Below, one piece after another: positions 1-18,331 of a DNA stretch of 56,029 bases. Below the pieces are notes generated by a model. It saw only the letters and a list, made by a program, of their open reading frames with translations, did no database searches and was not told the origin of the DNA. The stretch is from a virus, in the IMG/VR virus record IMGVR_UViG_3300021559_000001, positions 1 through 56,029 of that record. One strand, 5' to 3'. Within the stretch, counting starts at the first letter, position 1, and each line of letters begins with the position of its first letter. A program made the position numbers and the translations under genes.

Positions 1-464
1 CATCCGCTGAAAATCGCTGAAGCGCTGCCGGAGTTGGGATTGGTTTTGAATCCGTGAACCTCCGCAACCAGGTAGCCGGTTCCTGTGGTTGTGATCTGAA
101 TTCGCACGTAGGGGAAATAGCCCGTTGCGCGAATCTCTCCTTGGGTGGTTGCTGTTGTCGGATTGGTGAATGGGGATACGATCGTGCCGGCGAAGTTGAC
201 GAAGGTTCCGGCAATGCCTCCTGTTCCCAAGGGAGCATCCTGCAGGAGCACCGAGACTGTTGCGAAGCCGTTGGAAGAGTAGGTCACTACGAAGCCATCG
301 CAGCCCGCGAATCGATTGTCTATATTCTGGCTGGTGAAGGTTCCTGCTGTGGTGATGGGGGGATTTACGAATTTACCGCAGTCTGGCTGTTGTGAGGTGA
401 CGGGGGTGAGTTGCTGGGCTTGGAGGAGAGTACCTAAGAAGAGTGTAATTAGAGTGAGTTTCAT
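1..464 (-). CDS. Secreted beta-rich protein, 5' part (continues at 56000)
   Basis: N-terminal 154 codons of a 332 aa protein that crosses the circle junction and ends at 55466. It starts at 464 with a short signal peptide (MKLTLITLFLGTLLQAQ), so it is probably exported. The rest is Ser/Thr/Gly/Val-rich with few charges and isolated cysteines, as in phage surface or fibre proteins; I recognise no named domain. It lies at the 3' side of repeat arm L (466-515). The downstream gene is the beta-propeller protein 53385-55364, so the two may form one adhesion module. Confidence 0.8.
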   Translation of the reverse strand, partial: MKLTLITLFLGTLLQAQQLTPVTSQQPDCGKFVNPPITTAGTFTSQNIDNRFAGCDGFVVTYSSNGFATVSVLLQDAPLGTGGIAGTFVNFAGTIVSPFTNPTTATTQGEIRATGYFPYVRIQITTTGTGYLVAEVHGFKTNPNSGSASAIFSG

Positions 465-521
465 GATAAACCGCCGTCGTGCTGTCCAGCCGGTTCGGAA
501 TGCCAGTGCGCGGGAAATGTC

Positions 522-550
522 TTGACCCATTCGGGCCGGCGTAGTACAAC
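522..550 (+). promoter_or_regulatory. Sigma70-type promoter of the tRNA
   Basis: TTGACC at 522-527, 17 bases, then TACAAC at 545-550. The tRNA 5' base (557) is 7 bases after the -10 box, so transcription would start at or next to the mature tRNA end. Confidence 0.7.
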
Positions 551-556
551 TTCAAA

Positions 557-628
557 TGCGGCGTGGAGCAGAGGCAGCTCGGCAGGCTCATAACCTGTAG
601 GTCGCCGGTTCGAGTCCGGTCGCCGCAA
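557..628 (+). tRNA. tRNA-Met(CAT), initiator-like
   Basis: A full cloverleaf folds by eye. The acceptor stem TGCGGCG pairs with CGCCGCA over 7 bp (557-563 with 621-627). The D stem is GAGC/GCTC, the anticodon stem GCAGG/CCTGT with loop CTCATAA (anticodon CAT), and the T arm GCCGG-TTCGAGT-CCGGT. The 3' CCA is not encoded. The A11-T24 pair of the D stem is typical of bacterial initiator tRNAs, but the three consecutive G-C pairs at the base of the initiator anticodon stem are missing (A29 here) and position 1-72 is a paired T-A. It is therefore either an altered initiator tRNA or an elongator tRNA-Met/Ile2 with an initiator-like D arm. Confidence 0.88.
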
Positions 629-671
629 TTGGGAAAACTTGGATAAACCCTGCATAGCGAGGGACGGTCCA

Positions 672-736
672 TCCGGCGCGAGAGCGCGATTGTTGGTGGT
701 TGTGAAAAGGGTCCGGCGCGAGAGCGCGATTGTTGG
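672..736 (+). repeat. Duplicated hairpin after the tRNA
   Basis: A 25 bp sequence occurs twice, at 672-696 and 712-736 (period 40). Each copy contains GCGC-GAGA-GCGC, a stem closed by a GNRA-type tetraloop. Both follow the tRNA, so they would lie in its 3' trailer and could protect or process the transcript. A part of this sequence (GAGCGCGAT) also occurs in several L arms. No reading frame of note covers it. Confidence 0.55.
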
Positions 737-764
737 CCCAGCCGTCCAGCCTCCCGAAAATATC

Positions 765-793
765 TTGACCGCTTCCCGGTCTTCCGTTACACT
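765..793 (+). promoter_or_regulatory. Promoter of gene 806-997
   Basis: TTGACC at 765-770, 17 bases, TACACT at 788-793, then 12 bases to the ATG at 806. The predicted 5' leader is only about 5 bases. Confidence 0.7.
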
Positions 794-805
794 GAATCTC
801 CCCGC

Positions 806-997
806 ATGAACGTTCACATTATGAACCAACCTACTGTGTACGAACTGTACGCCACACTGGCGCGCCTGGTTGACGGCGGCCATGGAGCGAGGCCGATCAT
901 TATCTGTCACGGTCGCAAGAAGTTGGATATCATCCAGGTTGCAACTCGCCCGAATAATCCCGACGCGCCGGCCGAAATCGACACGCGGGAGAGGTAA
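806..997 (+). CDS. Small cassette protein, unknown
   Basis: A 63 aa soluble protein starting MNVHIMNQPTVYELYATL. A second ATG lies five codons in. The predicted mRNA start is within about 5 bases of the ATG and no Shine-Dalgarno sequence is visible, so translation is likely leaderless. The mixed charged and hydrophobic make-up (IIICHGRKKLDIIQVATRP) looks like a small folded alpha/beta protein. It is followed after 3 bases by gene 1001-1252. I do not recognise a family. Confidence 0.6.
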   Translation: MNVHIMNQPTVYELYATLARLVDGGHGARPIIICHGRKKLDIIQVATRPNNPDAPAEIDTRER

Positions 998-1000
998 AAT

Positions 1001-1252
1001 ATGCCAGGGTTGCTGAAACCAAGTGCTTGCTGTCCATGTTGCGGAGTCCCGTTGATGGGGCTCGCCGATTTGACCACATCGACGACAGTGACACGCGAGT
1101 ATTTCCACGAAAAGCAAAACGGGGAGCTGCGGCGTTCCAAATGTACGAAACGCTTCACGGATTTGCGGGCCGCTGCCAACGAACGGAGCGCTCTGGAAGT
1201 CCACTGCGCACTGGCGAGCACAGGCCGTCGCGGACAGTATCACCCAAACTAA
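1001..1252 (+). CDS. Small cysteine-rich cassette protein with repeat-encoded tail
   Basis: An 83 aa protein with a CCPCCG cluster near residue 10 and a further Cys near residue 47; a small zinc-binding fold is possible. The ATG has GAGAGG 8 bases upstream and follows the previous stop by 3 bases, so the two genes form a unit. The last residues (ALASTGRRGQYHPN) are encoded by repeat arm R. The same frame of R gives similar tails in the proteins at 6578-6736 and 22245-22463. Confidence 0.6.
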   Translation: MPGLLKPSACCPCCGVPLMGLADLTTSTTVTREYFHEKQNGELRRSKCTKRFTDLRAAANERSALEVHCALASTGRRGQYHPN

Positions 1253-1260
1253 AGTCATTT

Positions 1261-1812
1261 TCATAGCCACGGATACTCCGTTCTTGGCCAGATATACCCT
1301 GTAAGCGCGCAGATCGTTTTCCCTGCTGGGTCTAGGGGTCCGCTTCCTGGGTTGGCGAAGTTCACGAAATACTGAAGCAATTGCCCGGAGAGCAGCGGAA
1401 TTCCTTGCCCCACAACATCGAAGGGCACGGTTAAGCTTCCGAGAGAGGTGCGGATATTGTCGAAAAATGGAATGTAGCGCCGGTCCTGCTGGACTCTCCA
1501 CACGATATCCCCGGATTCCTCGACGAAGCCGAACGAGTTCCAGACGTTCGTCATGCTGATTAAAAGGCCGTCGTAGCCCAGTGGAATGCGTTCGGAGAAT
1601 ACCAGATGGTCGGCGCCGTCGATGAGCCCCACTGAGGCGAGAGCTTTCCGCGGCTGCCAGCGCTTCGAGGTTTCGGGCGGCTGCAGAAATGGCGTGAGCC
1701 GGTTCGATTTCGGCCGGTTGGCCACGATCCTGCAGAACTCGCGTTGGGAGTGTTTCAGCCATTGAGAGGCTTGAATCAGATCAGTGTCACATGCTCCAAG
1801 GTTTCCTAGCAT
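1261..1812 (-). CDS. Probable virion protein, unknown
   Basis: A 183 aa protein whose ATG at 1812 is preceded by AAAGGAAC. The N-terminal third is charged and helical. From about residue 65 the sequence becomes beta-rich and aromatic (WNSFGFVEESGDIVWRV, RRYIPFFDNIRTSLGSLTVPF) like the other virion candidates, but the repeated PGSQI/FxGxKRF signature seen at 4270-8996 is not clear here. No signal peptide or membrane segment. It lies between cassettes 1 and 2. Confidence 0.72.
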   Translation of the reverse strand: MLGNLGACDTDLIQASQWLKHSQREFCRIVANRPKSNRLTPFLQPPETSKRWQPRKALASVGLIDGADHLVFSERIPLGYDGLLISMTNVWNSFGFVEESGDIVWRVQQDRRYIPFFDNIRTSLGSLTVPFDVVGQGIPLLSGQLLQYFVNFANPGSGPLDPAGKTICALTGYIWPRTEYPWL

Positions 1813-1924
1813 AGATTGTTCCTTTGGGGTAAACCGCCGTCGTGCTGTCCGCCAAGGCTTCCGGGTGTCCTTCGCGCGGTGAAAGTACCAGTACAGAATG
1901 CCGCTTGAGAATGTTGGGAAACCC

Positions 1925-1953
1925 TTGTTTTCGATATTCTGACCGAGTATTCT
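1925..1953 (+). promoter_or_regulatory. Promoter of gene 1962-2477, leaderless layout
   Basis: TTGTTT at 1925-1930, 17 bases, TATTCT at 1948-1953, then 8 bases to the ATG at 1962. There is no purine-rich ribosome binding site; the transcript would start 1-2 bases before the ATG. Confidence 0.6.
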
Positions 1954-1961
1954 ATAGACCC

Positions 1962-2477
1962 ATGATCACCGCCGAACTGCAAAAAGAAATCGACAGTGCC
2001 CTTGAAACCACTCTGATGTTTGCGCCTAAGGGTGCAACCCTCAAAGAACTTGCCGCGCGAGCTTACAATTCCAATCGTCCGATATTCGATCAGGCTCAAC
2101 CCACCTGGATGCTGGATCGTATTGAGTGGATGATAGCGAGAAAGCGTAGGACGATAATTTCTGTTGATGCTGAGGAGCCCGCCCAATTCATGCTCCCTGG
2201 TTTTGAACGTATCCCCCGACGCCTCACAATGAAAAGCGGGAAACGTGTTGCTTTGCAGAACGCGATTCTTTCTCAACTGCGCGAGTATAGAGCCGCCCTG
2301 ATCGTGCAACTGACGAATTACCGGAACACGCTCGCTTCGAAAGATCCGGCCCAACATCCGAGAGTTCTCGCCCTCGACCGGCTGATTGAGTTGATGGAAG
2401 CCCACTCCGTCAAAGGTAAGACTGTCACAGTGGGCGACGTTATGGCCGCCGAGCGCAAAAAACAGGAGTGGCGCTAG
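1962..2477 (+). CDS. Cassette protein, paralogue of 51509-52156
   Basis: A 171 aa, charged, mostly helical protein of unknown function. Its C-terminal 85 residues match the end of the protein at 51509-52156: FERIP followed by a variable Leu-rich segment, helix RLIELMEA against RLIQLMQA, then TVTVGDVM against GITVKKAM. The N-terminal half (KGATLKELAARAYNSN) could be a small helix-turn-helix. A small regulator is possible but not shown. It is the only protein gene in cassette 2 and stops just before arm R. Confidence 0.75.
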   Translation: MITAELQKEIDSALETTLMFAPKGATLKELAARAYNSNRPIFDQAQPTWMLDRIEWMIARKRRTIISVDAEEPAQFMLPGFERIPRRLTMKSGKRVALQNAILSQLREYRAALIVQLTNYRNTLASKDPAQHPRVLALDRLIELMEAHSVKGKTVTVGDVMAAERKKQEWR

Positions 2478-2536
2478 AGCCTCCGCGCAATGCCGACTCC
2501 GAAGCCGCGTCGATAGTCGAGCCCAAACTAAAAGCA

Positions 2537-3103
2537 TCACTTTGGCTCCAAAAAAAACATCGCCAGTTGACAGGACACATTATTATCCGACCCTGGCTGG
2601 GAATCGTTGGACACTTCACAATGGATCTGGCCCGGTTCCAATATTAGCCGCGGCTCATCTAGCAACTCGATCGGCGGGTTCAGCGTGTTGAACGTGGTCG
2701 TCACCGTCGAACCGCCCTTGATTCCTTGCCCTGCCTGCGGACGGTCGTAGATTCCCATCCCTGTGAACGATTCACGTATCATGACGCTGAACTTGGATTG
2801 CACGATCCCATCGTTGTTTACCGCGAAGGTCAAGCCCCACAGGTAGGAGCCGGGGCGTACCTGGAACTCGAGAAACTCCGTCTTGCCGGGTGGAATGTTC
2901 GTCGAGTTGGTATTGTTCGGGTTGGTGAATTGCTTCGGGCAGATGAAAACGCGCGGCCGGTAGCTGTCGGCCGCCAGTCTCAAATTCTGCATGGTCTCGT
3001 TTTGAAGGCAGTTCCAATACCAGTTCGATCCTTGGAGGGGGCGGGTTCCAAAGATTGATCCATAGCAGAAGCCGTCGAGTATTTGGGGGTAGTTTGTTAG
3101 CAT
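2537..3103 (-). CDS. Probable virion protein with beta-sandwich character
   Basis: A 188 aa protein; the ATG at 3103 has AAGGAG 6 bases upstream. Beta-rich and Asn/Pro/Gln-rich with the motif EPGQIHCEVSN and end QLAMFFLEPK, resembling the PxSQIxxDL...FxGxKR pattern of the neighbouring virion candidates. No signal peptide or membrane segment, so it may be an internally made capsid or spike protein. The stop at 2537 directly precedes arm R of cassette 2. Confidence 0.75.
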   Translation of the reverse strand: MLTNYPQILDGFCYGSIFGTRPLQGSNWYWNCLQNETMQNLRLAADSYRPRVFICPKQFTNPNNTNSTNIPPGKTEFLEFQVRPGSYLWGLTFAVNNDGIVQSKFSVMIRESFTGMGIYDRPQAGQGIKGGSTVTTTFNTLNPPIELLDEPRLILEPGQIHCEVSNDSQPGSDNNVSCQLAMFFLEPK

Positions 3104-3121
3104 GAGGCTCCTTGGAATCTT

Positions 3122-3346
3122 GGGGGTAAACCGCCGTCGTGCTGCGGAGGAAGGTTTCGGGTTTGACTTCGCGCGGTGGAAGTGTATAATCGTTTCGGCA
3201 GCTTGACGATCCGTGGTTCTGTTGGGCGCTTTATTTCGGGATACTCTCCGAGGCCCACGCTTGACCTTGCGCCGATCAAGCCGTTCAAACTGGCCCCCGC
3301 GCAATGCCGATTCTGAGCCTGCGTCGATCCTTCAGCCCAAACTAAG
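3122..3346. repeat. Inverted-repeat cassette 3 (no protein gene)
   Basis: Arm L 3122-3181 and arm R 3294-3346 enclose about 110 bp without a credible reading frame. The interval carries a strong promoter at 3163-3190 and a potential hairpin TGGGC...GCCCA (about 3224-3260) with an inner CGGGA/TCCG stem, so the cargo may be a small RNA. The next plus-strand gene starts 105 bases beyond arm R. Confidence 0.65.
3163..3190 (+). promoter_or_regulatory. Strong promoter in cassette 3
   Basis: TTGACT at 3163-3168, 16 bases, perfect TATAAT at 3185-3190. The -35 box lies inside repeat arm L. It can serve a short RNA within the cassette and, by read-through, gene 3451-4014. Confidence 0.7.
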
Positions 3347-3450
3347 GTCCTCATCCTGTAAGTACCTAGAACCAACGGCCTAGGTGAAGAAATAGAACCG
3401 AATTCGGACACGCTGGGACTGTTTCCCGCGTCTCTAAGGCAGGAGAATAA

Positions 3451-4014
3451 ATGTATGAAAACTTTCTGGATAGCAATGTTATACTTGGCGATGCTCTGGC
3501 CTGGTTGGCAGTTGAGATCGAGCGTTCTGACATCCACGTCCGCCATCAATGGCAAGCCGTTGTTTACTTCCACGTCCCCTGCGGGGTTTGTCAGGAAATG
3601 ACGCTGCACGATCAGTACGGAGAGGTCGAGGTTGGAATCGGCGATCTGTTTGAAATGAAGACGGGTCCCGCACAGAATCAATTCTCCGCTACGCTGGCTG
3701 TTGTCTGTCCCGAGCCGCTGACATTCAAGGGCCAACCGATTATCTGCGTACGTCTGAAACAAGGCGTCCTTGAGCATAACGGATCGAGATTTGAATACTC
3801 CGAAGAGCGGAACAATCTGCTTTTCAACCTCACTGGCGATCAGGTGGCGCGCCTGATCCGTGAGCATCGCCTGATGACCTTCGATATTCCCGCGCCGCAA
3901 TTGCCGCAGTTGCCGCAGAATATCTTGGACGAGAAAGTAATCAAGCCTCGCCGCGCTTCCGACAGCAAGAAACCCGCACGAAAGCATGAGCCAAACCAAA
4001 GCAGCCTGTTTTAG
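3451..4014 (+). CDS. Hypothetical protein, 187 aa
   Basis: Starts at an ATG with GCAGGAG 7 bases upstream, one of the few good Shine-Dalgarno sites on the plus strand in this half. The protein is acidic to neutral with a VPCGVCQEMTLHDQ segment (a CxxC pair), mixed beta strands to about residue 150, then a Pro/Lys tail ending QSSLF. No signal peptide. I do not recognise a family. It is probably transcribed from the promoter at 3163-3190. Minus-strand reading frames over it are long but look like shadows. Confidence 0.72.
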   Translation: MYENFLDSNVILGDALAWLAVEIERSDIHVRHQWQAVVYFHVPCGVCQEMTLHDQYGEVEVGIGDLFEMKTGPAQNQFSATLAVVCPEPLTFKGQPIICVRLKQGVLEHNGSRFEYSEERNNLLFNLTGDQVARLIREHRLMTFDIPAPQLPQLPQNILDEKVIKPRRASDSKKPARKHEPNQSSLF

Positions 4015-4073
4015 CCATACCAAACCATGGCAGAGGCTCTGGCGATTCGTTGTAGGGCTTCCTTTGGTGGCTG

Positions 4074-4202
4074 TCATAGCAGCAATCCCAGATCCTCGCA
4101 GAGTTCGCGGTATTCCCGATAGTTGTCGCCGCGGTCAGAACTTTTCCAGAATTCCTCTTCGCGAAACTCACGCATGATGCGCTGGGCCTGAGTTTCCGGC
4201 AT
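4074..4202 (-). CDS. Micro-protein, 42 aa, repeat-supplied ribosome binding site
   Basis: A charged helical peptide starting MPETQAQRIMREFREEE; GGGGGAACTC before the ATG at 4202 comes from the inner end of repeat arm R (4206-4259). The frame is open upstream through the repeat, so a 61 aa form starting MVWAQYST is also possible. Its stop overlaps (ATGA) the start of a long frame antisense to gene 3451-4014, whose first residues could be translated by coupling. Confidence 0.5.
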   Translation of the reverse strand: MPETQAQRIMREFREEEFWKSSDRGDNYREYRELCEDLGLLL

Positions 4203-4205
4203 GAG

Positions 4206-4259
4206 TTCCCCCGCGCAATGCCGACTCCGAGCCTGCGTCGAATATTGAGCCCAAACCAT
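4206..4259. repeat. Solitary repeat arm R
   Basis: CCGCGCAATGCCGACTCC to GAGCCCAAACCATAAA. It lies between the convergent ends of the 3451-4202 region and the minus gene 4270-5166, without a matching L arm directly to the left; the nearest L is at 3122. Confidence 0.65.
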
Positions 4260-4269
4260 AAAAACCCTG

Positions 4270-5166
4270 TTACCCGTTTACCGGCCCACTCACTGGAATT
4301 CGTTCCATCCCATCAAATATAATCTGCCACACATTCCCTTGAGCAACTGATTGCACCGCGTACAGATCGACTAGAATCTGACTCTGCCGCGGATAAAGGA
4401 TCCCTGGACAGGGGAACACTCCAGGCATCGGCGCCGGATCGGCCTGAAAGATCGGGGAAATCTGGTCGATGATGTAGGAATCCGGCACGGGCGCATTGGA
4501 AAGCGGATAGCCGCTCGAATCGTACAGCCAGTAATTGAAGACGCCCACGCGATCGGTGGTGACCAGCGGGACGCCTCCCGACAATGGCGGAGTGGCCGTT
4601 CCCGTGTCGAGTTGAATGATCCGATGGAGCTCGAAGTCGAGCCCGGCATTGATTCTTACGCTGAACCGCTGGTGATTCCCTCTCGTCCACGTTACAGGCC
4701 CCACGTTGAGCACGTACTGATAGCCGCGGGTGATGTAACCGGGACACGGATACGGCGCCTTCTCCCACGGAAACCGCTTGACCCCCTGGAATGCAAGGTA
4801 CGCAAGGAAGTCGGTTCCACCCGAGACCGCTACCGCTTTCGTAATCGTGGCGAGGTCGAAACGGATCTGGCTTTCCCGCGGGTAGTGTTTTTCAGGAACG
4901 ACGCTGATGTCCGCTTGTGGCCCTGCGATCGCCGCGGCCGGCAGCCAGGCGTAGGAGTTGCTGTAGTTGCGATAGGCGAAGAATTGCGCGATCGACGACG
5001 CGCCCGCGATCCGTCGAAGGATAAATTCCGCATCTCCATCGAGTTTGGTCGAGAGGGTATTGTTGACGCTGGTTCCATTCGTCAACCCGGTTCCGTCGAA
5101 CATGTAGATGTAAGGCACGTCATGGCAGCCTGGGGGGGTGATGTAGGGGGAGTATAGGTTGCTCAT
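4270..5166 (-). CDS. Virion protein with tandem beta-rich domains (copy 1)
   Basis: A 298 aa protein, near-duplicate of 6744-7598. Two copies of one domain follow each other: residues 1-145 with DGDAEFILRRI, YPRESQIRFDL, FQGVKRFP; and 155-295 with NAGLDFELHRI, YPRQSQILVDLY, IIFDGMERIP. Single-domain relatives are 7632-8090 and 8574-8996. The make-up (alternating polar and aromatic strands, many Pro/Gly turns, no signal peptide, no membrane segment) fits a jelly-roll-like capsid or spike protein. The tandem arrangement would give a double-barrel subunit; that is inference. AAAAGG precedes the ATG. Confidence 0.85.
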   Translation of the reverse strand: MSNLYSPYITPPGCHDVPYIYMFDGTGLTNGTSVNNTLSTKLDGDAEFILRRIAGASSIAQFFAYRNYSNSYAWLPAAAIAGPQADISVVPEKHYPRESQIRFDLATITKAVAVSGGTDFLAYLAFQGVKRFPWEKAPYPCPGYITRGYQYVLNVGPVTWTRGNHQRFSVRINAGLDFELHRIIQLDTGTATPPLSGGVPLVTTDRVGVFNYWLYDSSGYPLSNAPVPDSYIIDQISPIFQADPAPMPGVFPCPGILYPRQSQILVDLYAVQSVAQGNVWQIIFDGMERIPVSGPVNG

Positions 5167-5177
5167 GAGGATGCCTT

Positions 5178-5298
5178 TTGGGGTGAACCTCGGTCGTGCT
5201 GTCCGCCAAGGTTACGCGCGGCCGTGCCCCCGGTGGAAGTGATTTCCCCCGCGCAATGCCAGCCGCGAACCTGCGTCGATAATCGAGCCCAAACTAAA
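5178..5298. repeat. Inverted-repeat pair 4, no cargo
   Basis: Arm L 5178-5237 and arm R 5245-5298 lie back to back with less than 10 bases between them. They fill the whole gap between the two minus-strand virion genes 4270-5166 and 5303-6508. This is the simplest form of the pair and shows that the two arms belong together even without cargo. Confidence 0.75.
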
Positions 5299-5302
5299 AA
5301 CG

Positions 5303-6508
5303 TCATGACGGTAGCAAGCACCTCTTAACGGGTCCCGGACTGCTGGGCGACAGAAGCATGACCAGTAGACTATGAGCGGTGGCCGGAGCATGGGCGGCAT
5401 CCTGCTCGGTCCAGGTGATACCGTCTGCTGATTTGAAGATGCGAATCTGATAGCTGATCGGCAGCCCCTCATGGAAAAACAGCGTTACGTAGAGCGGATT
5501 ACCAGCCCCGCCCGGCCCGACGTAGTAACCGGCATCGGTCGCGCCGTTTTGGGATAGCGCCGTGACAATCCCGAAAGCTCCGCTTGCGAGCTGCGCCGCC
5601 GATAGAGAGAAAATAAATTGGCTAGCGGCAGGCACGCCAGGCACGGGATTAGCTACCGCGTCATAAAACAAAGCCGGCGCGCTCCAGACTCCCGCGATTC
5701 GCGTGCTCTTGAACACGCTAATCACCGTCGGCGAGTTGTTCGTGTTCCAAAAGAGATTCAAATTGCCGGAATTGTCCACAACCAGGTACTCATCCTGATC
5801 GATATCGGTATTCGGGAGCGTGGTGTCGACCTGTTCAAATGTCCAAACCGGAGTAATCGAAGTGGCTGGATTTCCGAACCATACCCCAACCGGAAACGGC
5901 GATACTGTCGAGAAATACCCGAAAGCGATCTGACCGTTCCATAGCACTGGCGTCGAAATGAAACCACTCGGCGCACCCGCATCCGCCAGGATGACTTGAC
6001 CAAGATTCACCACGCCGCCCGTCGATAGAGTGCCGTGCATCATGATAGTAGGGCTCAGAATATTAGTTTGGTGCTGAAAGTAGATGACATGGATTAAATT
6101 GTTCTGATCTACGATTGCCTGAACGAAGCCCGGCTCATTGCTAACGTTGACCACACTTGGAGTGAAAACAGTTTGAGGTCCCCAGACGCCGCCGCTGAAG
6201 ACCCGGTAAAACAGGTTGCTTCCGCTGCCCGTCCCGCCCCCGAAGAACACGTAAACATCGCCGCTCGCAACCTGACAGCTAGCTCGAAATGTTCCATTGG
6301 CAGGCAACGTAAACCCGGCATCGGGAACTCCGTATGCATCCGTCACCATGCTGTAGTTGACCACATGGATATGGCCTGGAAAGATGGGGTCGACGTAGAC
6401 CAGGCGGATGAAACCGGCTGCTGGCTTCTGAAATGGCCCCATAAAGCCATTGCTGGCGTTATTCTGCAAGCTCAGGTTTGTAGGGTCGATCAGGTTTGGG
6501 CTGGGCAC
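5303..6508 (-). CDS. Beta-propeller-like virion surface protein
   Basis: A 401 aa protein starting with GTG at 6508, AAGGAG 11 bases upstream. Repeating blade-like units (VYVDPIFPGHIHVVNY, HVIYFQHQTN, LNLFWNTNNSPTVISVFK, IRIFKSADGITWTEQD) resemble sialidase/BNR-type propellers; the last one is a typical Asp-box strand. Such proteins bind glycans and often act as receptor-binding spikes. No signal peptide. It sits between the two tandem-domain proteins in the same orientation. A related blade pattern occurs in 53385-55364. Confidence 0.8.
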   Translation of the reverse strand: MPSPNLIDPTNLSLQNNASNGFMGPFQKPAAGFIRLVYVDPIFPGHIHVVNYSMVTDAYGVPDAGFTLPANGTFRASCQVASGDVYVFFGGGTGSGSNLFYRVFSGGVWGPQTVFTPSVVNVSNEPGFVQAIVDQNNLIHVIYFQHQTNILSPTIMMHGTLSTGGVVNLGQVILADAGAPSGFISTPVLWNGQIAFGYFSTVSPFPVGVWFGNPATSITPVWTFEQVDTTLPNTDIDQDEYLVVDNSGNLNLFWNTNNSPTVISVFKSTRIAGVWSAPALFYDAVANPVPGVPAASQFIFSLSAAQLASGAFGIVTALSQNGATDAGYYVGPGGAGNPLYVTLFFHEGLPISYQIRIFKSADGITWTEQDAAHAPATAHSLLVMLLSPSSPGPVKRCLLPS

Positions 6509-6526
6509 GGTTCAGAGTACTCCTTG

Positions 6527-6735
6527 TGTTTGAATCCGTGCTGGCTGCGCTATGATGAATGGTGCGAGCGCGATCCTATGCCCTGTCTGGAATACGTGCA
6601 AATATGCGTCTGCGGTCATACCTACAGCCTTCACACGCACACAGTATGCCCGGTTTGTTTTCGATGGCCCGTTAAAAGCGTGCCCCGCGCAACGGCAAGC
6701 ACGGAGCAGCCGTCGACAAATAAGCCCAAATACTA
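6527..6735. repeat. Inverted-repeat cassette 5 (micro-gene)
   Basis: Arm L 6527-6576 (TTTGAATCCGTGCTGGCTGC, ends GCGAGCGCGATCC) and arm R 6681-6735 (CCCGCGCAACGGCAAGC to AAGCCCAAATACTAA). L carries a TATGAT box preceded 15 bases upstream by TTGAAT, a possible weak promoter shared with the L arms at 20221 and 22193. The cargo is the gene 6578-6736, whose end lies in R. Confidence 0.7.
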
Positions 6736-6736
6736 A
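6578..6736 (+). CDS. Micro-protein with zinc-knuckle pattern and repeat-encoded tail
   Basis: A 52 aa protein: MPCLEYVQICVCGHTYSLHT, then HTVCPVCF. The C-x-C, H...H and C-x-x-C arrangement fits a small zinc-binding finger. The last 18 residues (RATASTEQPSTNKPKY) are read from repeat arm R, in the same frame as the tail of 22245-22463. The ATG directly follows arm L. A 76-codon minus-strand frame (6512-6742) covers the same DNA and is built mostly from the two arms; I favour the plus-strand gene because its unique part has the metal-binding pattern. Confidence 0.55.
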   Translation: MPCLEYVQICVCGHTYSLHTHTVCPVCFRWPVKSVPRATASTEQPSTNKPKY

Positions 6737-6743
6737 GCCCATT

Positions 6744-7598
6744 TCAGATCACCCCCTCATCCGGAACCCGCTCCACTCCATCAAACACAATCTGCCAGCA
6801 ATCCCCGTTCGGCGTGCTCTCGGTCGCGTAGAGGTCTACTACGATTTGAGAGAACCGCGGATAGAGCAAACCGGGAACCGGGAAAACTCCCGGCATGGGA
6901 CTAGGGTCCGCTTGGTCGATGGGGGAAATTTGATCGAGGACGTAGGAATCGGGAACCGGCGCGTTTGAAACCGGATACCCGTTGGCATCGTACAGCCAAT
7001 AATTGAAAACTCCGACCCGATTTGTCGGGACGTTGGTTCCGTTGCACTGAATGATTCTCATCAACTCGAAATCGAATCCTGCGTTGACGCGCACGCTGAA
7101 CCGCATGTACTGGGGTCGAGTCCAGGTGACCGCTGGCACGTTGAGCACGTACTGAAAGCTTCGCGGCGTGAAAGGGCAGGGACGAACCGGACTGCTCCAC
7201 GGGAAGCGCTTGACGCCCTGGAACGCGAGATACGACAGGAAATCCGTTCCACCCGAAATTGCCACGGCCTTTGCGATCCCGCCGAAGTCAAAGCGGATCT
7301 GGCTGTCTCGCGGATACACTTTCTCCGGCGCCACGCTGATATCGGCCTGCGGACCTGTTACGGAAGCCGCCGGAAGCCACACATACGAATTGCTGGCGTT
7401 GCGGTAGGTGAAGAATTGCGCGATCGAGGACGCGCCGGCGATTCGTCGAAGAATAAAATCCGCATCCCCATCGAGTTTCAGCGAGAGCGTGTTATTGACC
7501 GTGGTTCCGTTCGTGAGGCCCGTACCATCGAACACGTAGATATAGGGCGCGTCGTGACATCCAGGAGGGGTTAGGTAAGGCGAGTATAGATTACTCAT
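6744..7598 (-). CDS. Virion protein with tandem beta-rich domains (copy 2)
   Basis: A 284 aa protein. The ATG at 7598 (MSNLYSPYLTPPGCHDAPY) has CGGAGG 5 bases upstream and aligns with the start of its near-duplicate 4270-5166. Signatures in order: DGDADFILRRI, YPRDSQIRFDF, FQGVKRFPW, then the second domain with NAGFDFELMRI, YPRFSQIVVDLY and QIVFDGVERVP. Second-domain loops are shorter than in copy 1. Two copies at this divergence suggest an old duplication with separate roles, for example major and minor capsid or penton proteins. Confidence 0.85.
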   Translation of the reverse strand: MSNLYSPYLTPPGCHDAPYIYVFDGTGLTNGTTVNNTLSLKLDGDADFILRRIAGASSIAQFFTYRNASNSYVWLPAASVTGPQADISVAPEKVYPRDSQIRFDFGGIAKAVAISGGTDFLSYLAFQGVKRFPWSSPVRPCPFTPRSFQYVLNVPAVTWTRPQYMRFSVRVNAGFDFELMRIIQCNGTNVPTNRVGVFNYWLYDANGYPVSNAPVPDSYVLDQISPIDQADPSPMPGVFPVPGLLYPRFSQIVVDLYATESTPNGDCWQIVFDGVERVPDEGVI

Positions 7599-7631
7599 GA
7601 AACCTCCGAGTATCGCCACGGCGCGCCACAT

Positions 7632-8090
7632 TCAATATCCCCTCCGGTAGCGGTTCGGACCCCGGAAAACCACTTGCACGTTTTGATTGACCGCGGCCAC
7701 GTTGATGATGTCAAAGTGGATCGCTTGCCGCTGCCCAGGTCCTCTTCGATAGCTTACGGCCGGAAATTGCGGGAAGGGATTAGCCCACGTTCCCGGCGTG
7801 TTGTTCGAGTACAGAAAGCCGTCGCTGATGTAGTTGCCGGCGTCGTCCTGGACACGATAGAGGAAGCCCGGTCCTGAGACAGCGAAGATGAACGCGCGCC
7901 AGATAAATTCGTCCGCATCGCTGAGCACGATTACCTGATTGTTGAGCACCTGGTTCCCTGTCATCACCTGGAATCCGCCAGAGGGGGGCCAGATCATAGC
8001 GGCGTCCACGTCTTCGCAGCCTTGGGGGGAGGCTGGGTTGAACCCGTTCAAGTAAGGTGGAGCTGCCGGGTTGAAGATTTCTTGGCTCAT
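7632..8090 (-). CDS. Virion protein with single beta-rich domain
   Basis: A 152 aa protein starting MSQEIFNPAAPPYLNGFNP at 8090; no clear Shine-Dalgarno sequence. It has the pattern of the tandem-domain proteins once: GNQVLNNQVIVLSDADEFIW, YRVQDDAGNYISDGFL, RRGPGQRQAIHFDI, QVVFRGPNRY. No signal or membrane segment. It follows 8574-8996 in the transcript, with cassette 6 between them, and precedes 6744-7598. Confidence 0.8.
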   Translation of the reverse strand: MSQEIFNPAAPPYLNGFNPASPQGCEDVDAAMIWPPSGGFQVMTGNQVLNNQVIVLSDADEFIWRAFIFAVSGPGFLYRVQDDAGNYISDGFLYSNNTPGTWANPFPQFPAVSYRRGPGQRQAIHFDIINVAAVNQNVQVVFRGPNRYRRGY

Positions 8091-8130
8091 AGGATGAGTG
8101 GGGGTAAACCTCGGTCGTGCTGTCCAGACG

Positions 8131-8159
8131 ATTCGGAAATACCCGAGCCCTGATACAAT
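8131..8159 (+). promoter_or_regulatory. Promoter of the structured RNA
   Basis: TACAAT at 8154-8159 with a weak ATTCGG at 8131-8136, 17 bases apart. The RNA 5' stem starts 7 bases after the -10 box, the same geometry as at the tRNA at 557. Confidence 0.5.
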
Positions 8160-8166
8160 GTGCATG

Positions 8167-8392
8167 TTAGCGTCGGCGTGGTGGCAAGCACGCTCGGAAG
8201 TGTGAGAACGACGGGGTTACTACAGGGGTTCTGATATGCGCGTGATGAGTGACAGCAGGGGGAAGCCCCCGGGATCACATGCACCAAGTCACGGCTGTTC
8301 GGTCCGGTATACTGCGAAGTTAAGCCCTGCTTGACGGTCGATCTGCGCTCACTGCTGAGGGTCGAAAGCCGGTTCGAATCCGGCACGCTAAC
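8167..8392 (+). ncRNA. tRNA-like structured RNA of 226 nt with a large insertion
   Basis: The ends form a tRNA frame: 5' TTAGCGT (8167-8173) pairs over 7 bp with ACGCTAA (8385-8391), a D-arm-like GCGT-GGTGGCAAGC-ACGC follows, and a canonical T arm GCCGG-TTCGAAT-CCGGC precedes the 3' strand. Between D arm and T arm lie about 170 extra bases with further stems: GTGA...TCAC enclosing GGGGG-AAG-CCCCC (about 8241-8278), and GTTAAG-CCCTG-CTTGAC (about 8319-8335). I see no group I core (no GACTA-type R/S elements) and no tmRNA D-loop signature. It may be a tRNA with an unusual intron or an RNA that borrows tRNA ends for processing. No anticodon can be assigned. Confidence 0.5.
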
Positions 8393-8404
8393 AACGGCTG
8401 AACT

Positions 8405-8512
8405 ATGACAAGAAAACAGCGCAAGCAATGAAATGCAAACCGGCGCTACCGTGTGCGGCGCAAACAAAAGCGGCAGAAGATGCGAAATGCCCAAAGGCCT
8501 ACCGGGAGATAA
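8405..8512 (+). other. Arg/Lys-rich frame with one internal TGA
   Basis: From ATG 8405 the frame reads MTRKQRKQ, TGA (8429-8431), then NANRRYRVRRKQKRQKMR and ends at TAA 8510-8512. The part after TGA keeps the same composition as the part before it. It may be an 8-residue peptide followed by chance sequence, a recent nonsense mutation, or a read-through product. An out-of-frame ATG (8430) gives a 36 aa alternative with three cysteines. Confidence 0.3.
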
Positions 8513-8573
8513 TTCCCCCGCGCAATGCCGATTACTAACCTGCGCCGATAGTCGAGCCCAAACTAAAAGCATT

Positions 8574-8996
8574 CTACCTAATCCCCATCCGAGTGCTCAT
8601 CGCCTCAGGTCCACAAACAGGAGGTGGAACCACAAATCTCTTGATCCCGACGAATCCAAGCTGAATAATATTCTGAACTCCGCTCTGCTCCTGCAGGTCC
8701 GCTGTGATCTGAGAGCCAGGCGGGAACACGCGGGGCTTGCCCATGAAAGTGTAAGGTAGCGGCCCTTGTGCGTTGATGTTGGCCGCCAGAATCGGCGAAC
8801 TCGAGAAATAGTTACCGCCTGAGTCCCGGAACTGCACCGTGAACAGGATCGAAGTGAAGGCGTTCAGGATGAGCCCCAGCAAGAGAAAGTCAGAATCGGT
8901 GTCGGTGCGTACGCCGTCGCCTGTCAGCAGTTGATTGCCTACCATTGTCACGTCGTAGTTGTAGGTGAAGCTTAAGTCTCCGAAGTATCCGTTCAT
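8574..8996 (-). CDS. Virion protein with single beta-rich domain
   Basis: A 140 aa protein; the ATG at 8996 has AAGAGG upstream. The domain signature appears once: GNQLLTGDGVRTDTDSDFLL, TVQFRDSGGNYFSSS, PPGSQITADLQ, LGFVGIKRF. This links it to 7632-8090 and to each half of 4270-5166 and 6744-7598. No signal peptide. With the others it forms a set of at least four paralogues transcribed together. Confidence 0.8.
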   Translation of the reverse strand: MNGYFGDLSFTYNYDVTMVGNQLLTGDGVRTDTDSDFLLLGLILNAFTSILFTVQFRDSGGNYFSSSPILAANINAQGPLPYTFMGKPRVFPPGSQITADLQEQSGVQNIIQLGFVGIKRFVVPPPVCGPEAMSTRMGIR

Positions 8997-9077
8997 AGCT
9001 GGGCCTCTTGAATCTTTGGTGATAAACCGCCGTTGTACTCTCGTCTCGCTTCGGAGATACCCGAGCGCTGGGGCCGG

Positions 9078-9106
9078 TTGCGCGGGCCATGCTGGACCGC
9101 TACAGT
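9078..9106 (+). promoter_or_regulatory. Promoter of gene 9113-9499, leaderless layout
   Basis: TTGCGC at 9078-9083, 17 bases, TACAGT at 9101-9106, then 6 bases to the ATG at 9113. It supports this ATG over the one at 9089, which would lie upstream of the mRNA start. Confidence 0.6.
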
Positions 9107-9112
9107 GAGCGC

Positions 9113-9499
9113 ATGGGAACGTATTACCGCATTGACAATCACGACAGGTGCGAAACCATCGATCTGTACCAGGTCACCAACATCAAAGGCGGCGCGTTTC
9201 AACGGTGGTCTTTGCAACAAGCCGTACTGAATGTCTTCCTGGGTTTCGGCCGCGATTACCGCTGGCCGGAATGGACAGGCCGATGGGAGTTGAACCGCAT
9301 CCGCATCCATAACGACGGGGAGGACGATGCGCCGTGTGACGAGTGGCCCGACGCTGGCATTCTGTTTTTGGCCGATCTCGATACAAGGGGCGTGCTGGAA
9401 GGATGGATATCCTACATCGGGTGGACTGATACCTGGGTTGCTATGCATGGAACGGAGGATTTGCGCAAGTGGATCGCTGAGCAACGCGCGGTCCAGTAA
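9113..9499 (+). CDS. Cassette protein, unknown, 128 aa
   Basis: Starts MGTYYRIDNHDRCETIDLYQ; the start is chosen because the promoter places the mRNA 5' end at this ATG. A soluble, acidic, Trp-rich protein (RWSLQQAVLNVFLGFGRDYR, WPEWTGRWELNRIRIHND). No cysteine clusters, signal peptide or membrane segment. I recognise no family. It is the only gene in cassette 7. Confidence 0.7.
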   Translation: MGTYYRIDNHDRCETIDLYQVTNIKGGAFQRWSLQQAVLNVFLGFGRDYRWPEWTGRWELNRIRIHNDGEDDAPCDEWPDAGILFLADLDTRGVLEGWISYIGWTDTWVAMHGTEDLRKWIAEQRAVQ

Positions 9500-9659
9500 C
9501 CCGCAGGCTCCCCCCGCGCGAAGTCCAGCCCAGAGCGTAATCGTTAGTACGACCCAAACAAAAAGCATTTCCATAAAAGCGAAAGAGGAGGCGGACTCCC
9601 CCGAGAAAAGAGAAGAGCCCGCCTCGAAACATCAAATCACCCCAAGAATCCAGAAAGAA

Positions 9660-10443: not shown

Positions 10444-11433
10444 CTACCAGGCGCTTCCCCACGCGCCCATAGTCACCTGCGCGCCACGCTGCATCGCCGT
10501 GGGGCTTTGGGCCGGAGGCGCGAGCTGCATCGGCGCGCGTACCGGAATTGTCGGCAAGGGGAATCCTGCCGGGGCGAAATCGCCCATGCCGCTGAGCGCG
10601 AACTGGCTCAACGGTCCAAACGAAAGGGCGTTGATGGCGACATTGATGGTCTGCGCGATGCCGCCGCCCCAGACGCCTACCGCGAACGGTCCAGGCATCC
10701 ATTTGTGCGCCGCCCATCCTGCGGCAAAGGCAATCGCGCCCGTGGTCAATACCGCCATCCAGGGATTAGCGATCGCTTGCGGCACCATACCCCCGATGAC
10801 GGACGCGCCTTTCTTGGCCGCGAAAACTCCCAGCAGAATGCCGCCGCCGAACTTCACGGCCTGAGCCGGGGTCTGCCCGAACGGATTACGCGATCCGCGC
10901 GGTGAGTGACGATGACTGCGCGCGGTTGCTCTCTTCTTATAGTGGCGATGCGGATTCGATGATTTGGCCCGGCGTCGAGAGCTTTTAGCCGAGGCCCGTT
11001 TCCTCTTTGTCATGCTCTTTCTCCTGTGTGGATTTACCGGACCTGCGGTTAGAAGCCAGTAGGGACCGGGGTTGCTGCGTTTCCGCTTTGAATTGGCCTT
11101 AGCTCGTTTCTTGGCGGGTGGTCTGGACTTGTAGACGATGCGGGTCTTGTACTTGGTCTTATAGACCGTTCTCGTCTTGGGATTCGAGCGCGCCCGTTTG
11201 CGCGTTCGATGGGAATTGGCGGCCGCCCTTTTACGGGGACGGTGCGAAGCGTGCGAAGCCGAAACGCGATGTTTCTTTGGCCGGTGAGTATTGGCCTTGG
11301 CGCTGGCCTTTCGTTTGCGAGCGGCCTTGAGTCCCGCCCGCTGGCGCGCAGTCCCGAAGAACTTGATCTGTTTCGCCGTCAGTTTCTTGCGGTGCGGATT
11401 GGCCGCTCTTGTCTGGAGTTTGGTTTTGACCAT
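10444..11433 (-). CDS. Very basic membrane-linked virion protein with GMGDF motif
   Basis: A 329 aa protein. Residues 1-195 are an Arg/Lys/His-rich tract with SNP/NPH repeats, likely nucleic-acid binding. Residues 200-290 contain up to three hydrophobic segments (GGGILLGVFAAKKGASVIGG, AVLTTGAIAFAAGWAAH, VGVWGGGIAQTINVAI). Then follows GMGDFAPAGFPLP, a motif shared with 17587-18159. An internal ATG at 11013 (codon 141) has a strong AGGAG 7 bases upstream, so a shorter product is likely made from the same frame. The protein could tie the genome to a membrane; that is inference. Confidence 0.8.
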   Translation of the reverse strand: MVKTKLQTRAANPHRKKLTAKQIKFFGTARQRAGLKAARKRKASAKANTHRPKKHRVSASHASHRPRKRAAANSHRTRKRARSNPKTRTVYKTKYKTRIVYKSRPPAKKRAKANSKRKRSNPGPYWLLTAGPVNPHRRKSMTKRKRASAKSSRRRAKSSNPHRHYKKRATARSHRHSPRGSRNPFGQTPAQAVKFGGGILLGVFAAKKGASVIGGMVPQAIANPWMAVLTTGAIAFAAGWAAHKWMPGPFAVGVWGGGIAQTINVAINALSFGPLSQFALSGMGDFAPAGFPLPTIPVRAPMQLAPPAQSPTAMQRGAQVTMGAWGSAW

Positions 11434-11449
11434 TTTGTTTCTCTTCTCC

Positions 11450-11800
11450 TTACTGCAAAATAGTGTGCGGCTGCATAGCGTAGAGTTTGGCTATGATCGT
11501 CGTGCCGGCTACCGCACCGCCTGAGCCGGCCGCGTTTGTCTTTGTCAACGTGATGTTCGTTGCCGTCACCGCCACTCCCCAGTTGGGAAGCGCCGCATTC
11601 GCGTAAGTAACCACGTTTTGAAGAAGCGCTAAATCGGGCGCGACCGAAACGGGTCCCGCCGCGGTCTGGATTACAAAGCCGTGCGGGAAGGTCACGGTAG
11701 TATCGGCGTCGAGCGCCGTGATGTTCCACGATTTGTATTGCGGACTCGCCGGAGCAACGATTCCCGATCCGCTTATAACTGGTGTCGCTACGATTGCCAT
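11450..11800 (-). CDS. PHTILQ-module protein 1
   Basis: A 116 aa protein beginning MAIVATPVISGSGIVAPASP; GGGAGA precedes the ATG. It is a single copy of a module also forming the C-terminal parts of 11819-12799 and 12816-13205: PVI(S/T)GS, (P)QYKSW, D(A/T)DT, PHGF, ANWGV/I, GSGG, and the identical end PHTILQ. It is beta-rich and soluble, probably a virion decoration or fibre-tip module. The three genes are adjacent and co-oriented. Confidence 0.8.
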   Translation of the reverse strand: MAIVATPVISGSGIVAPASPQYKSWNITALDADTTVTFPHGFVIQTAAGPVSVAPDLALLQNVVTYANAALPNWGVAVTATNITLTKTNAAGSGGAVAGTTIIAKLYAMQPHTILQ

Positions 11801-11818
11801 TTCATTTCTCCCTTTTGT

Positions 11819-12799
11819 TTACTGCAAAATCGTGTGGGGGCGCCCGGCTACCACTTTCAAAACGTTCGTGCCGCCCGATCCAGTGGCGGATTGTTTGACC
11901 AGGATGATATTGTTGGCATCCGCCGTGATCCCCCAATTGGCAAGCGCCGCATTGGCCGTGCTCGGAATCACGGTGCCGTTTACGAAATCCGGCTGGACAC
12001 TGACTCCCCCGGTGATTCCAAACTGCAAAAATCCATGCGGGAAAGAAAAGCCGGTATCGGTGTCGCAGCAGGAAATCAGCCAGGATTTATATTGAGGCTG
12101 ACCCGGTGGTGGAATCTGCGATCCGGTTATGACCGGCGTAGCAATGAAACACCCTGACGCTCCGTTCGTACCGCCCGCCGTAAATGTATTGGTGATGGTG
12201 TTGGCTTGTAAGGTGACTGCGCCTGTCCGCGCCATCGCTCTCCCACTGAGCGTGGCGCCGGTGTTGATCGTGACCGAAGCTTGGGCCATGATCGTGCCCA
12301 GCATGGTTGCAGTCGTTCCGATAGTGGCCGAGCTTCCCACTTGCCAGAAGACATTTGCCGCCAGTGCTCCATTTGCCAAAACTACAGAAGCGGCGTTGGC
12401 TACCGTGAGAGTGCTCGGAATCTGGAAAATCCAAACTGCTGCCGCATTGCCTTGGGCGTCGAGGGTGAGAACCCCCGTGAGGCCTACGGAAGAATTGGAT
12501 TTGTAGACCCCAGGCGGGAGAGTTTGTCCACCCAGGTCGCCCACGATCAAAGTACCGCCAGATCTATTTGCCGCGTCGTTGAATGCGGTGGTTAAATCCA
12601 GTTGAGCCTGAGCCGCGGCCGCGTTGGCGATATCTTGCGCGCCGGTGACAGTTCCAGGAGGGAAGCCGGTGACCGATGTTCCAGGACTTAAGCCGAGCTT
12701 CCCGGTGATAGCCGTGGCCCCTGTGCTGGTGACAGTTGAAGCGGCTAAAACGGGATAACCGGATGCCGATCCGAGTCCTACAGTCGGTACGATGGGCAT
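11819..12799 (-). CDS. DUF3494 (ice-binding-like) domain fused to PHTILQ module
   Basis: A 326 aa protein with AAGGAG before the ATG. Residues about 15-205 match the DUF3494 family (ice-binding-like beta-solenoid): LGLSPGTSVTGFPPGTVTG, LPPGVYKSNSSVGLTG, VWIFQIPSTLTVANAAS, NVFWQVGSSATIGTTATM, GRAMARTGAVTLQANTI. In bacteria these domains are secreted adhesins or ice binders. Residues about 215-326 are the PHTILQ module. No signal peptide is present, so it would be built into the particle rather than secreted. It may be a fibre or attachment protein. Confidence 0.85.
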   Translation of the reverse strand: MPIVPTVGLGSASGYPVLAASTVTSTGATAITGKLGLSPGTSVTGFPPGTVTGAQDIANAAAAQAQLDLTTAFNDAANRSGGTLIVGDLGGQTLPPGVYKSNSSVGLTGVLTLDAQGNAAAVWIFQIPSTLTVANAASVVLANGALAANVFWQVGSSATIGTTATMLGTIMAQASVTINTGATLSGRAMARTGAVTLQANTITNTFTAGGTNGASGCFIATPVITGSQIPPPGQPQYKSWLISCCDTDTGFSFPHGFLQFGITGGVSVQPDFVNGTVIPSTANAALANWGITADANNIILVKQSATGSGGTNVLKVVAGRPHTILQ

Positions 12800-13205: not shown

Positions 13206-13599
13206 TAGAGTCCTCCTTTGGTTCTTCGAGTTTTTGATTCGGGTCTGGCGCTGGGGCCGGAGCTTGCGCTGGCGCAGATTCGGGGTCGCTCTCCCCTTCC
13301 TGGTTTTTCGGATTGGGGAGTTGAACCATGTGGATGGTGGGTGGATCGGCCTGAAGTTTGGCTAGCTGAGCCTGGAGCGAGATAATCGCGTGGCAGTGGT
13401 CATGGGCCAGGCCCGCTCCGGGGACGTTCGCCAGTTGCTCCAAAGTCTCCACGCTGGCGAATACTTCCTTGTTGCAGTGCGGGCAGACTTTTCCACTGGG
13501 ATATCCGAACGCCTCGGTATAGACCCTGTTCTGTTCGAGAATTGTGGACAGCATCGCCAGGGCCGCGCGATGCTGTTTGGATAGAGAGGTCAGCGTCAT
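13192..13599 (-). CDS. Virion-module protein with CxxC zinc site
   Basis: A 135 aa protein: helical N-terminus, then CPHC (about residues 39-42) and HDHCH (about 66-70), together a plausible zinc site, and a long Pro/Ala/Glu-rich tail (SAPAQAPAPAPDPNQKLEEP). It starts 3 bases after the stop of 13603-14259. Function unknown; the disordered acidic tail could bind the basic virion proteins. Confidence 0.7.
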   Translation of the reverse strand: MTLTSLSKQHRAALAMLSTILEQNRVYTEAFGYPSGKVCPHCNKEVFASVETLEQLANVPGAGLAHDHCHAIISLQAQLAKLQADPPTIHMVQLPNPKNQEGESDPESAPAQAPAPAPDPNQKLEEPKEDSSACA

Positions 13600-13602
13600 A
13601 GA

Positions 13603-14374: not shown

Positions 14375-14455
14375 CATGAAGGTTGCTTTCCAGGTGCTAC
14401 TTCCGCTTCCCCCGTCGAGGTCGCGAAATCTTTCCTAATCTCGTTGCGCCGAAAC

Positions 14456-14647
14456 TCAGACGCTCAGATATTTTGCTCTCACTTCGTTAGCCGCTCGTTC
14501 GGCTTCCGTTTCTACGCAGGCCTTATACATCCACGCTGACATCGCGACGACATCTTCGATCCCCGTACCATTGATGGCAGTGTGAGCCCGGCGCAGCGTG
14601 CCTGCCTTCGCGTCGATGACAATTGGCCATAAGCAAAAGACTTTCAT
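14456..14647 (-). CDS. Small soluble protein, 63 aa
   Basis: Begins MKVFCLWPIVIDAKAGTLRR two bases after the stop of 14649-16169. The C-terminal half is a charged helix (ACVETEAERAANEVRAKY). No motif recognised. It is the last gene before the terminator-like hairpin. Confidence 0.65.
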   Translation of the reverse strand: MKVFCLWPIVIDAKAGTLRRAHTAINGTGIEDVVAMSAWMYKACVETEAERAANEVRAKYLSV

Positions 14648-16480: not shown

Positions 16481-16484
16481 CGCT

Positions 16485-18323: not shown

Positions 18324-18331
18324 GCCGGTTC

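Follow-up and report, generated by a model that had tools for sequence, protein, structure and literature searches.

Antisense cargo between inverted repeat arms in a phage virion operon, and an open frame that crosses it

Introduction

How can accessory genes be added to tightly packed phage operons without harming virion production? This open question is raised, in a repeated and comparable form, by the window analyzed here, the whole IMG/VR virus record IMGVR_UViG_3300021559_000001 (56,029 bases; hereafter W), in which gaps between leftward virion genes hold cassettes, that is, small plus-strand genes or RNAs (cargo) enclosed by two arms, L and R, of a dispersed repeat of ~50 bp. An earlier note, made from the sequence alone, proposed a system in which cargo is gained or lost and the repeats are sites of recombination, transposition or transcription boundaries; the position of the arms at translational junctions and the openness of the virion-gene strand were missed there.

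Protein and repeat searches located three relatives in IMG/VR, namely B (IMGVR_UViG_3300037840_000311; 56,366 bp) and C (3300050133_000100; 53,692 bp), both with a 127-bp end repeat, and the fragment D (3300031753_000198; 21,632 bp). B was reverse-complemented to bring its virion genes onto the minus strand, matching W. The two ends of W have 29 bases in common, from which W is probably a circle. Virion gene numbers (g1, g2 and so on) follow W, with g57 denoting the gene across the record ends; it apparently comprises window 1-463 and 55466-56029 (minus strand), joined across the 29-bp overlap, and is homologous to B 11290-12696. The gene order of the virion region is largely common to W, B and C, and the family is mosaic because protein identity among the relatives ranges from ~30% to 94% (the latter for the DnaB helicases of W and C). 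No named-phage relatives were detected by megablast of window 1-25000 against phages or by tblastn of g10; the virion proteins tested had no convincing Pfam or PHROG match, and the predicted model of g10 (predicted local distance difference test score, pLDDT, 54) was too poor to serve as a structure-search query.

The virion-gene strand is open across nearly all of the cargo

By an anchor-free test, stop codons were counted in the best frame of each strand across 24 gaps in the virion regions of W, B and C. The sense (virion-gene) strand contains 15 stops and the antisense strand 85, compared with 67 expected from dinucleotide shuffles (combined Fisher p over the 24 gaps 7e-9 and 0.78, respectively). 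Counted from where the upstream stop ends, the open frame starts at -4 in ten gaps, as ATGA or GTGA, and at +1 in three others. In eight gaps its stop and the next start overlap as ATGA, and in most of the rest the two are within ~10 nt of each other; W 3104-4269 is bridged by two open reading frames (ORFs) that overlap each other by ATGA. With three exceptions that are considered below, the sense frame is open through the cargo and overlaps both neighboring genes, usually starting on the upstream stop, within or next to the R arm, and finishing on the following start at the L arm.

The openness is mirrored in the codons of the cargo. Twelve plus-strand cargo genes were compared with the bridging frame: each lies in phase 0 with it, and TTA, CTA and TCA are absent from their 1,421 codons (about 29 expected, P~1e-13). 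Since codon bias can leave the antisense frames of genes open, the other plus-strand genes of the same phages were used as a control: there, these codons number 66 of 3,257 (2.0%), and the difference between the two gene sets among Leu and Ser codons is highly significant (Fisher test, p 5e-12). The cargo genes g3 and A were counted in three genomes each, so that the effective number of independent cargo genes is eight, but each lineage has avoided the three codons separately, at 23-45% amino acid divergence. Several of the 12 ORFs are known from one genome only, which makes their status as genes less sure than that of g3 and A, and an ORF chosen for its phase with the open frame would be biased, a bias of which g3 and A are free. 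It is very probable that selection keeps the sense frame open.

The two comparable cargos also reveal which strand is read for its protein. Substitutions show a third-position excess on plus-strand codons in all pairs among W, B and C (41/33/73, 34/31/61 and 36/22/66 for g3; 14/10/32, 16/7/29 and 21/13/27 for A), and amino acid identity on the plus strand is 55-67% for g3 and 63-77% for A, compared with 33-50% in the in-register minus frame. As judged from these substitution patterns, g3 and A are shown to be under purifying selection on their own strand. At the level of sequence comparison, the virion-gene strand is conserved in openness and coupling and not in amino acids, and only the cargo strand shows selection at the protein level.

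These patterns bear on the best-surviving alternative, in which the virion-strand ORFs of the gaps encode ordinary small phage proteins (secreted or lipoprotein-like, the R arm providing an N-terminal signal and the L arm a C-terminus that is conserved), with the plus-strand genes overprinted on them. The R arm often reads M(K)xLLVWAxL..CxCAG, which resembles a signal-peptide N-terminus, the L arm often reads NGGLPQ, and the start/stop overlaps are those of real operon genes, as this explanation would have it. However, between the arms the minus-strand peptides are little alike unless the plus-strand cargos are homologous, the substitutions follow the plus codons, a true tRNA is among the cargo, and the frames of the arms shift in some copies, with elements in other frames elsewhere. 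We consider overprinting unlikely.

The repeat element and its placement

Hidden Markov models (HMMs) seeded with the arms listed in the earlier note and iterated over W, B, C and D detect 52, 32, 42 and 14 elements of ~50 bp, respectively. All nine L/R pairs of that note were recovered at the positions given for them. The elements had been reported at 466-9566 and in two later pairs, and they are indeed present there, but in W they occur genome-wide and on both strands; likewise, the claim that cargo is always on the plus strand holds in the virion operon, but not everywhere. In the operon, the arms form convergent L..R pairs around plus-strand cargo or stand head-to-head without cargo. R copies match the R-trained HMM with E values of 1e-6 to 1e-15, and L copies match the L-trained HMM at 1e-11 to 1e-15; some of the matched arms were seeds, and many non-seed copies were recovered as well.

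In the outer-to-inner direction, R reads TAGTTTGGGCTCAACTGTCGACGCCGGTTCGGGCTCGGCATTGCGCGG and L reads GGGGTAAACCGCCGTTCACCTGTCGGCGAAGGTTTCGGGCTTGCGGGAGCGCGGTG, with a common body and different heads. An HMM trained on L only scores above 5 bits on 15 of the 40 R elements read outer-to-inner, on none of the shuffled sequences, and not on the reverse complements of R elements. Because the L-trained model matches R and not the shuffles, L and R are one repeat in inverted orientation, alike beyond composition, as had been claimed. In other gaps, an L2 arm (TGTTTGAATTCGGGC...GGTCCGC; TTTGAATCCG-type) replaces L at the same position.

For 53% of L and 39% of L2 elements, a gene on the same strand starts no more than 30 nt from the outer end (~2% under random placement), and for 31% of R elements a stop on the opposite strand is equally close to the outer end (1% expected at random); given that gene calls are incomplete, these percentages are likely lower bounds. 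The elements are stop-poor only in the direction in which ribosomes on the virion mRNA would read them. Empty or near-empty units, with L-type and R arms head-to-head at a distance of 7-17 bp, are about 108-117 bp long and are found at W 5180-5296 and 20224-20334, B 17878-17985 and 28857-28965, and C 8643-8752 and 14450-14559. Arms resemble others of their own genome more than those of another genome, significantly so for L (p<0.001) and R (p 0.026) and not for L2, a pattern that exchange among arms would be expected to leave.

In IMG/VR, the L-arm pattern matched only B, C and D, and a search of 84,980 bacterial and archaeal genomes yielded 12 single scattered matches, taken as chance. Three distant homologs (G4, G5 and G6) show no such elements and no consistent bridging by the same measures; therefore the system appears to be restricted to the W/B/C/D family in the collections searched. 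G5 has hairpin-like dispersed repeats of its own. A distant 38.6-kb circular relative (L031/L032; IMGVR_UViG_3300039309_000130) carries many dispersed hairpin repeats on both strands that differ in sequence (e.g. CGTCGCGCAACTCCAGGGCGCGACG).

Two further explanations concern the arms themselves, and we hold each of them to be somewhat less probable still than overprinting. The L..R units could be non-autonomous transposons resembling miniature inverted-repeat transposable elements (MITEs), with passengers and mobilized by a transposase of the host or of another phage. The inverted arms qualify as terminal inverted repeats of ~50 bp, and the empty units, the copies dispersed on both strands and the passengers all fit. 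Set against this are the asymmetry of the arms, their orientation to the virion genes with the outer end near a Shine-Dalgarno sequence or a stop, and the narrow distribution of the L-arm pattern; furthermore, no transposase was recognized among the window proteins, as the earlier note had also stated, in profile scans with sparse annotation. None of the relatives located was close enough to supply an insertion site that lacks the unit. Alternatively, and with a similarly low probability, the arms could be boundary or regulatory sequences bound by a phage protein, comparable to operators or to the start-associated sequences (SAS) and extended start-associated sequences (ESAS) of other phages, and the cargo positions the product of ordinary mosaic recombination. 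The proximity of outer ends to gene starts supports such a role, and the ESAS sites of mycobacteriophages are start-associated inverted repeats (PMC3203893), but this explanation does not predict the open sense frame, the complete lack of TTA, CTA and TCA, or cargo placed exactly between the arms. Finally, the arms, being inverted copies, might pair in the virion mRNA to give a long hairpin, so that the cargo is looped out or the hairpin is cleaved by RNase III. This is very improbable and was rejected: cognate arms have no pairing advantage over non-cognate ones (mean -41.1 vs. -40.5 kcal/mol, permutation p 0.27), and most arm pairs do little better than shuffled arms.

Turnover of the cargo

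The same cargo occupies different gaps in different genomes. The g3 gene lies in gap g4|g2 of W, g7|g4 of B and g1|g57 of C, and A lies in g1|g57 of W, g2|g1 of B and g8|g4 of C; both are present, absent or moved among the three genomes, each as an additional gene separating two that are neighbors in relatives. Three parts of the g10|g8 gap can be aligned among W, B and C, namely the L arm, the promoter-like sequence next to it (TTGCGC-N17/18-TAGGAT; TACAGT in the W version) and the R arm; the cargos of 128, 132 and 137 amino acids, respectively, are unrelated and have no meaningful blastn match. The tRNA-Met of W was not found in B. The condition that would have refuted the earlier note does not hold, as cargo is not fixed and the arms resemble each other beyond composition. 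The proposal of a system in which cargo is gained or lost is borne out among W, B and C, where cargo has also moved while arms and virion gene order persist. We regard the turnover of the cassettes as practically certain.

As to the suggested transcription-boundary role, promoter-like sites are kept just inside the L arm in four cassettes, but consensus promoter and terminator counts are no higher than in shuffles. A structured RNA had also been claimed as cargo at 8166-8393 (plus strand), and this stretch folds no better than shuffles (z 0.31), with no Rfam match beyond chance and no transfer-messenger RNA (tmRNA) found at default settings. It does have tRNA-like ends, with a paired acceptor stem and T arm. 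When it is read as tRNA-Val(CAC), the 150-nt insert is short for the usual group I intron.

A proposed mechanism and its weak points

An untranslated antisense stretch of several hundred bases in a bacterial operon is expected to cause polarity, through Rho and the coupling of transcription and translation. Beyond the openness and turnover documented above, we propose a purpose and a mode of movement, both inferred: the units would be moron-like cassettes, antisense in the virion operon, whose recombining arms double as translational adaptors, a full mechanism that we consider moderately probable. Read in the direction of the virion genes, a cassette consists of the upstream stop, the R arm, antisense cargo, the L arm, a ribosome-binding site and the next virion start. 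Because the arms put a start codon over the upstream stop and a stop codon over the next start, any insert that is open in the frame could be crossed. Ribosomes on the virion mRNA would then traverse the cassette and make a throw-away peptide, and with such run-through translation the cargo would cause no polarity and leave translational coupling unbroken. Cargo might move when similar arms, in different gaps or in different phages, undergo homologous or annealing recombination; this would preserve orientation and frame because the heads of L and R differ. Such movement is suggested by the dispersed similar arms, the empty units, the retained orientation and frame, and the likeness of arms within a genome.

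Several observations weigh against this interpretation. Bridging is incomplete in three gaps, with 9 stops in B 15798-16968 and partial bridging in C 28859-29332 and C 13461-13877. It takes less to keep an antisense frame open when it is in register than when it is random, a point that the codon control addresses. The signal-like R-arm peptides (MKxLLVWAxL..C) imply that the sense ORF could encode something useful. The homology of L2 to L or R, included in the earlier claim of a single repeat that stood for L and R, could not be demonstrated by HMM. Among three complete genomes, with cargo homologs 55-77% identical, no recent move with clean junctions was seen. Lastly, no recombinase, integrase or transposase was recognized in Pfam and PHROGs scans of most window proteins, for which annotation is sparse; one early protein matched a PHROG HNH endonuclease family.

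It is quite possible, if somewhat short of probable, that the system is undescribed: a dispersed repeat that serves both as a recombination arm and as a two-sided translational adaptor, with antisense cargo that must avoid three codons in register. Searches of the open-access literature, limited in extent, found no description of such a system. The constraint is what sets it apart, and it would account for the ability of an insert to lie antisense in an operon. Being sharp and easily checked, the absence of TTA, CTA and TCA in register also offers a new signature for antisense cargo in other viruses.

Cassettes of the virion operon

Arm coordinates below are from the HMM search, and the bridging frames are on the virion-gene (minus) strand. 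In cassette 1, the L arm (465-513, minus) and the R arm (1206-1251, plus) enclose tRNA-Met(CAT) (557-628, plus; Rfam tRNA, 62.9 bits), cargo gene A (806-997, plus; 63 amino acids), with homologs in different gaps of B and C, and a second small cargo ORF (1001-1252, plus; 83 amino acids) whose 3' end enters the R arm; an open frame of 269 codons (461-1270) bridges the cassette. Cassette 2 contains an ORF of 171 amino acids (1962-2477, plus) between L (1826-1881, minus) and R (2483-2530, plus) and is bridged by an ORF of 244 codons (1806-2540) with a GTGA start on the upstream stop. Cassette 3 had been given as the pair 3122-3346; its L arm (3123-3178, minus) and first R arm (3297-3344, plus) are present, but the unit runs on to a second R arm (4211-4259, plus) and includes g3 (3451-4014, plus; 187 amino acids), with homologs in other gaps of B and C. 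The ATG of its bridging ORF (3097-4077; 326 codons) forms an ATGA overlap with the stop of a second, short ORF (4074-4259, minus), whose own start lies in the R arm.

The empty unit at 5180-5296 consists of an L arm (5180-5234) and an R arm (5249-5296) head-to-head and is spanned by an ORF of 47 codons (5163-5306) with ATGA at both ends. It is followed by an L2-type arm (6527-6571, minus) and an R arm (6685-6734, plus), bridged by 76 codons (6512-6742). The next L arm (8101-8152, minus) and R arm (8518-8565, plus) flank the tRNA-like cargo (8166-8393, plus), which ARAGORN with introns allowed reads as a possible tRNA-Val(CAC) with the insert in the anticodon loop; the bridging ORF of 161 codons (8087-8572) is coupled at both ends. 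In the g10|g8 gap, the L arm (9019-9070, minus) is followed by the conserved promoter-like TTGCGC-N17-TACAGT, cargo gene g9 (9113-9499, plus; 128 amino acids) and an R arm (9514-9561, plus), within a bridging ORF of 193 codons (8993-9574). Further along, the near-empty unit at 20224-20334 (L2 arm 20224-20268, R arm 20286-20334) is bridged by 75 codons (20209-20436; ATGA start, TGATG end), and the unit at 22195-22461 (L2 arm 22195-22238, R arm 22412-22461) by 99 codons (22170-22469; ATGA start).

Elements elsewhere and neighboring genes

Copies of L2 and R in the early region fall in frame within proteins, where they read as linkers or tails rich in Pro, Ala and Ser. In the ORF at 40676-41410 (minus), two L2 elements (41167-41211 and 40921-40965) and an R element (41107-41154) form, when read by eye, Pro/Ser/Ala/Asp-rich linkers around a Trp-rich segment (...GGPPTPDLAAQPDSNKKDADSLGLSVPPGSESALREG-YYWVWYQDNWRIAEWNGEDWDIFGWG...SGPPTPDLAAQPDSN...). 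Several neighbors of this ORF have L2-derived C-termini, and the ORF at 33444-35141 (minus) contains in-frame copies too. An adaptor tolerant of translation fits this placement of the element, at the borders of genes and domains. A 77-bp near-duplicate (86%) at 41608-41684 and 42511-42587, in two adjacent early genes, lies by L2 elements, and a gene for the co-chaperonin GroES (Cpn10; 30600-30950, plus) has an R-type element (30537-30581) just upstream of its start. The DNA methylase and helicase, which are separate genes in W (32521-35141, minus), are one fused protein of 942-945 amino acids in B (42286-45114) and C (41514-44351).

The virion region includes a duplicated virion protein (4270-5166 and 6744-7631, both minus) whose predicted model (pLDDT 67) resembles double-jelly-roll capsid proteins. 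In Foldseek searches, PRD1 P3 is the top PDB match (E 4e-7) and the GC1 phage major capsid protein the top viral one (E 3e-7), with VIA Z of only 7-8 on the second barrel and low TM-scores. Prokaryotic double-jelly-roll viruses have been reported with genomes of 7-18 kb (PMC5894146), a range that genomes of 54-56 kb would far exceed if this capsid assignment is real. A run of small proteins at 17377-24670 (minus), several with a C-terminal hydrophobic segment and a basic tail, is suggestive of a membrane-containing virion.

Comparison with known systems

One close parallel is with phage morons, extra genes with their own promoter between the genes of lambdoid and other phages. As in morons, small accessory-looking genes and tRNAs lie between virion genes on the opposite strand, some with promoter-like sequence upstream; in contrast to morons, the units described here are bounded by one dispersed repeat, their cargo is swapped between gaps and the operon strand is kept translatable. 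The conserved boundary sequences of mosaic lambdoid phages, which could guide homologous exchange, are likewise short sequences at module borders, whereas here one family occupies dozens of boundaries per genome and flanks single antisense cargo genes.

With SAS and ESAS, the arms have in common the position by start codons, the imperfect inverted repeats and the variable spacer. The ESAS of Cluster K mycobacteriophages are 17-bp repeats with a spacer of mostly 4-13 bp and no cargo (PMC3203893); the arms here do not belong to that class, being ~50 bp long, with up to ~1 kb of cargo and one arm that is stop-associated. Integron cassettes are similar as interchangeable gene units with a recurring boundary site and differ in having one site per gene, in contrast to the arms inverted around cargo here. 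An integron array was rejected, in agreement with the earlier note: the scans of most window proteins revealed no integrase, and neither attI nor attC (an imperfect palindrome with RYYYAAC/GTTRRRY cores) was found, the elements being non-palindromic half-sites in inverted pairs.

Antisense overlapping genes have long open frames on both strands (PMC7103648, PMC9927249), and in the cassettes, too, both strands of one stretch are open. The difference is that here only the cargo strand shows protein-level selection, which would make these cassettes a naturally occurring case of two-strand coding, with openness the sole conserved property of one strand.

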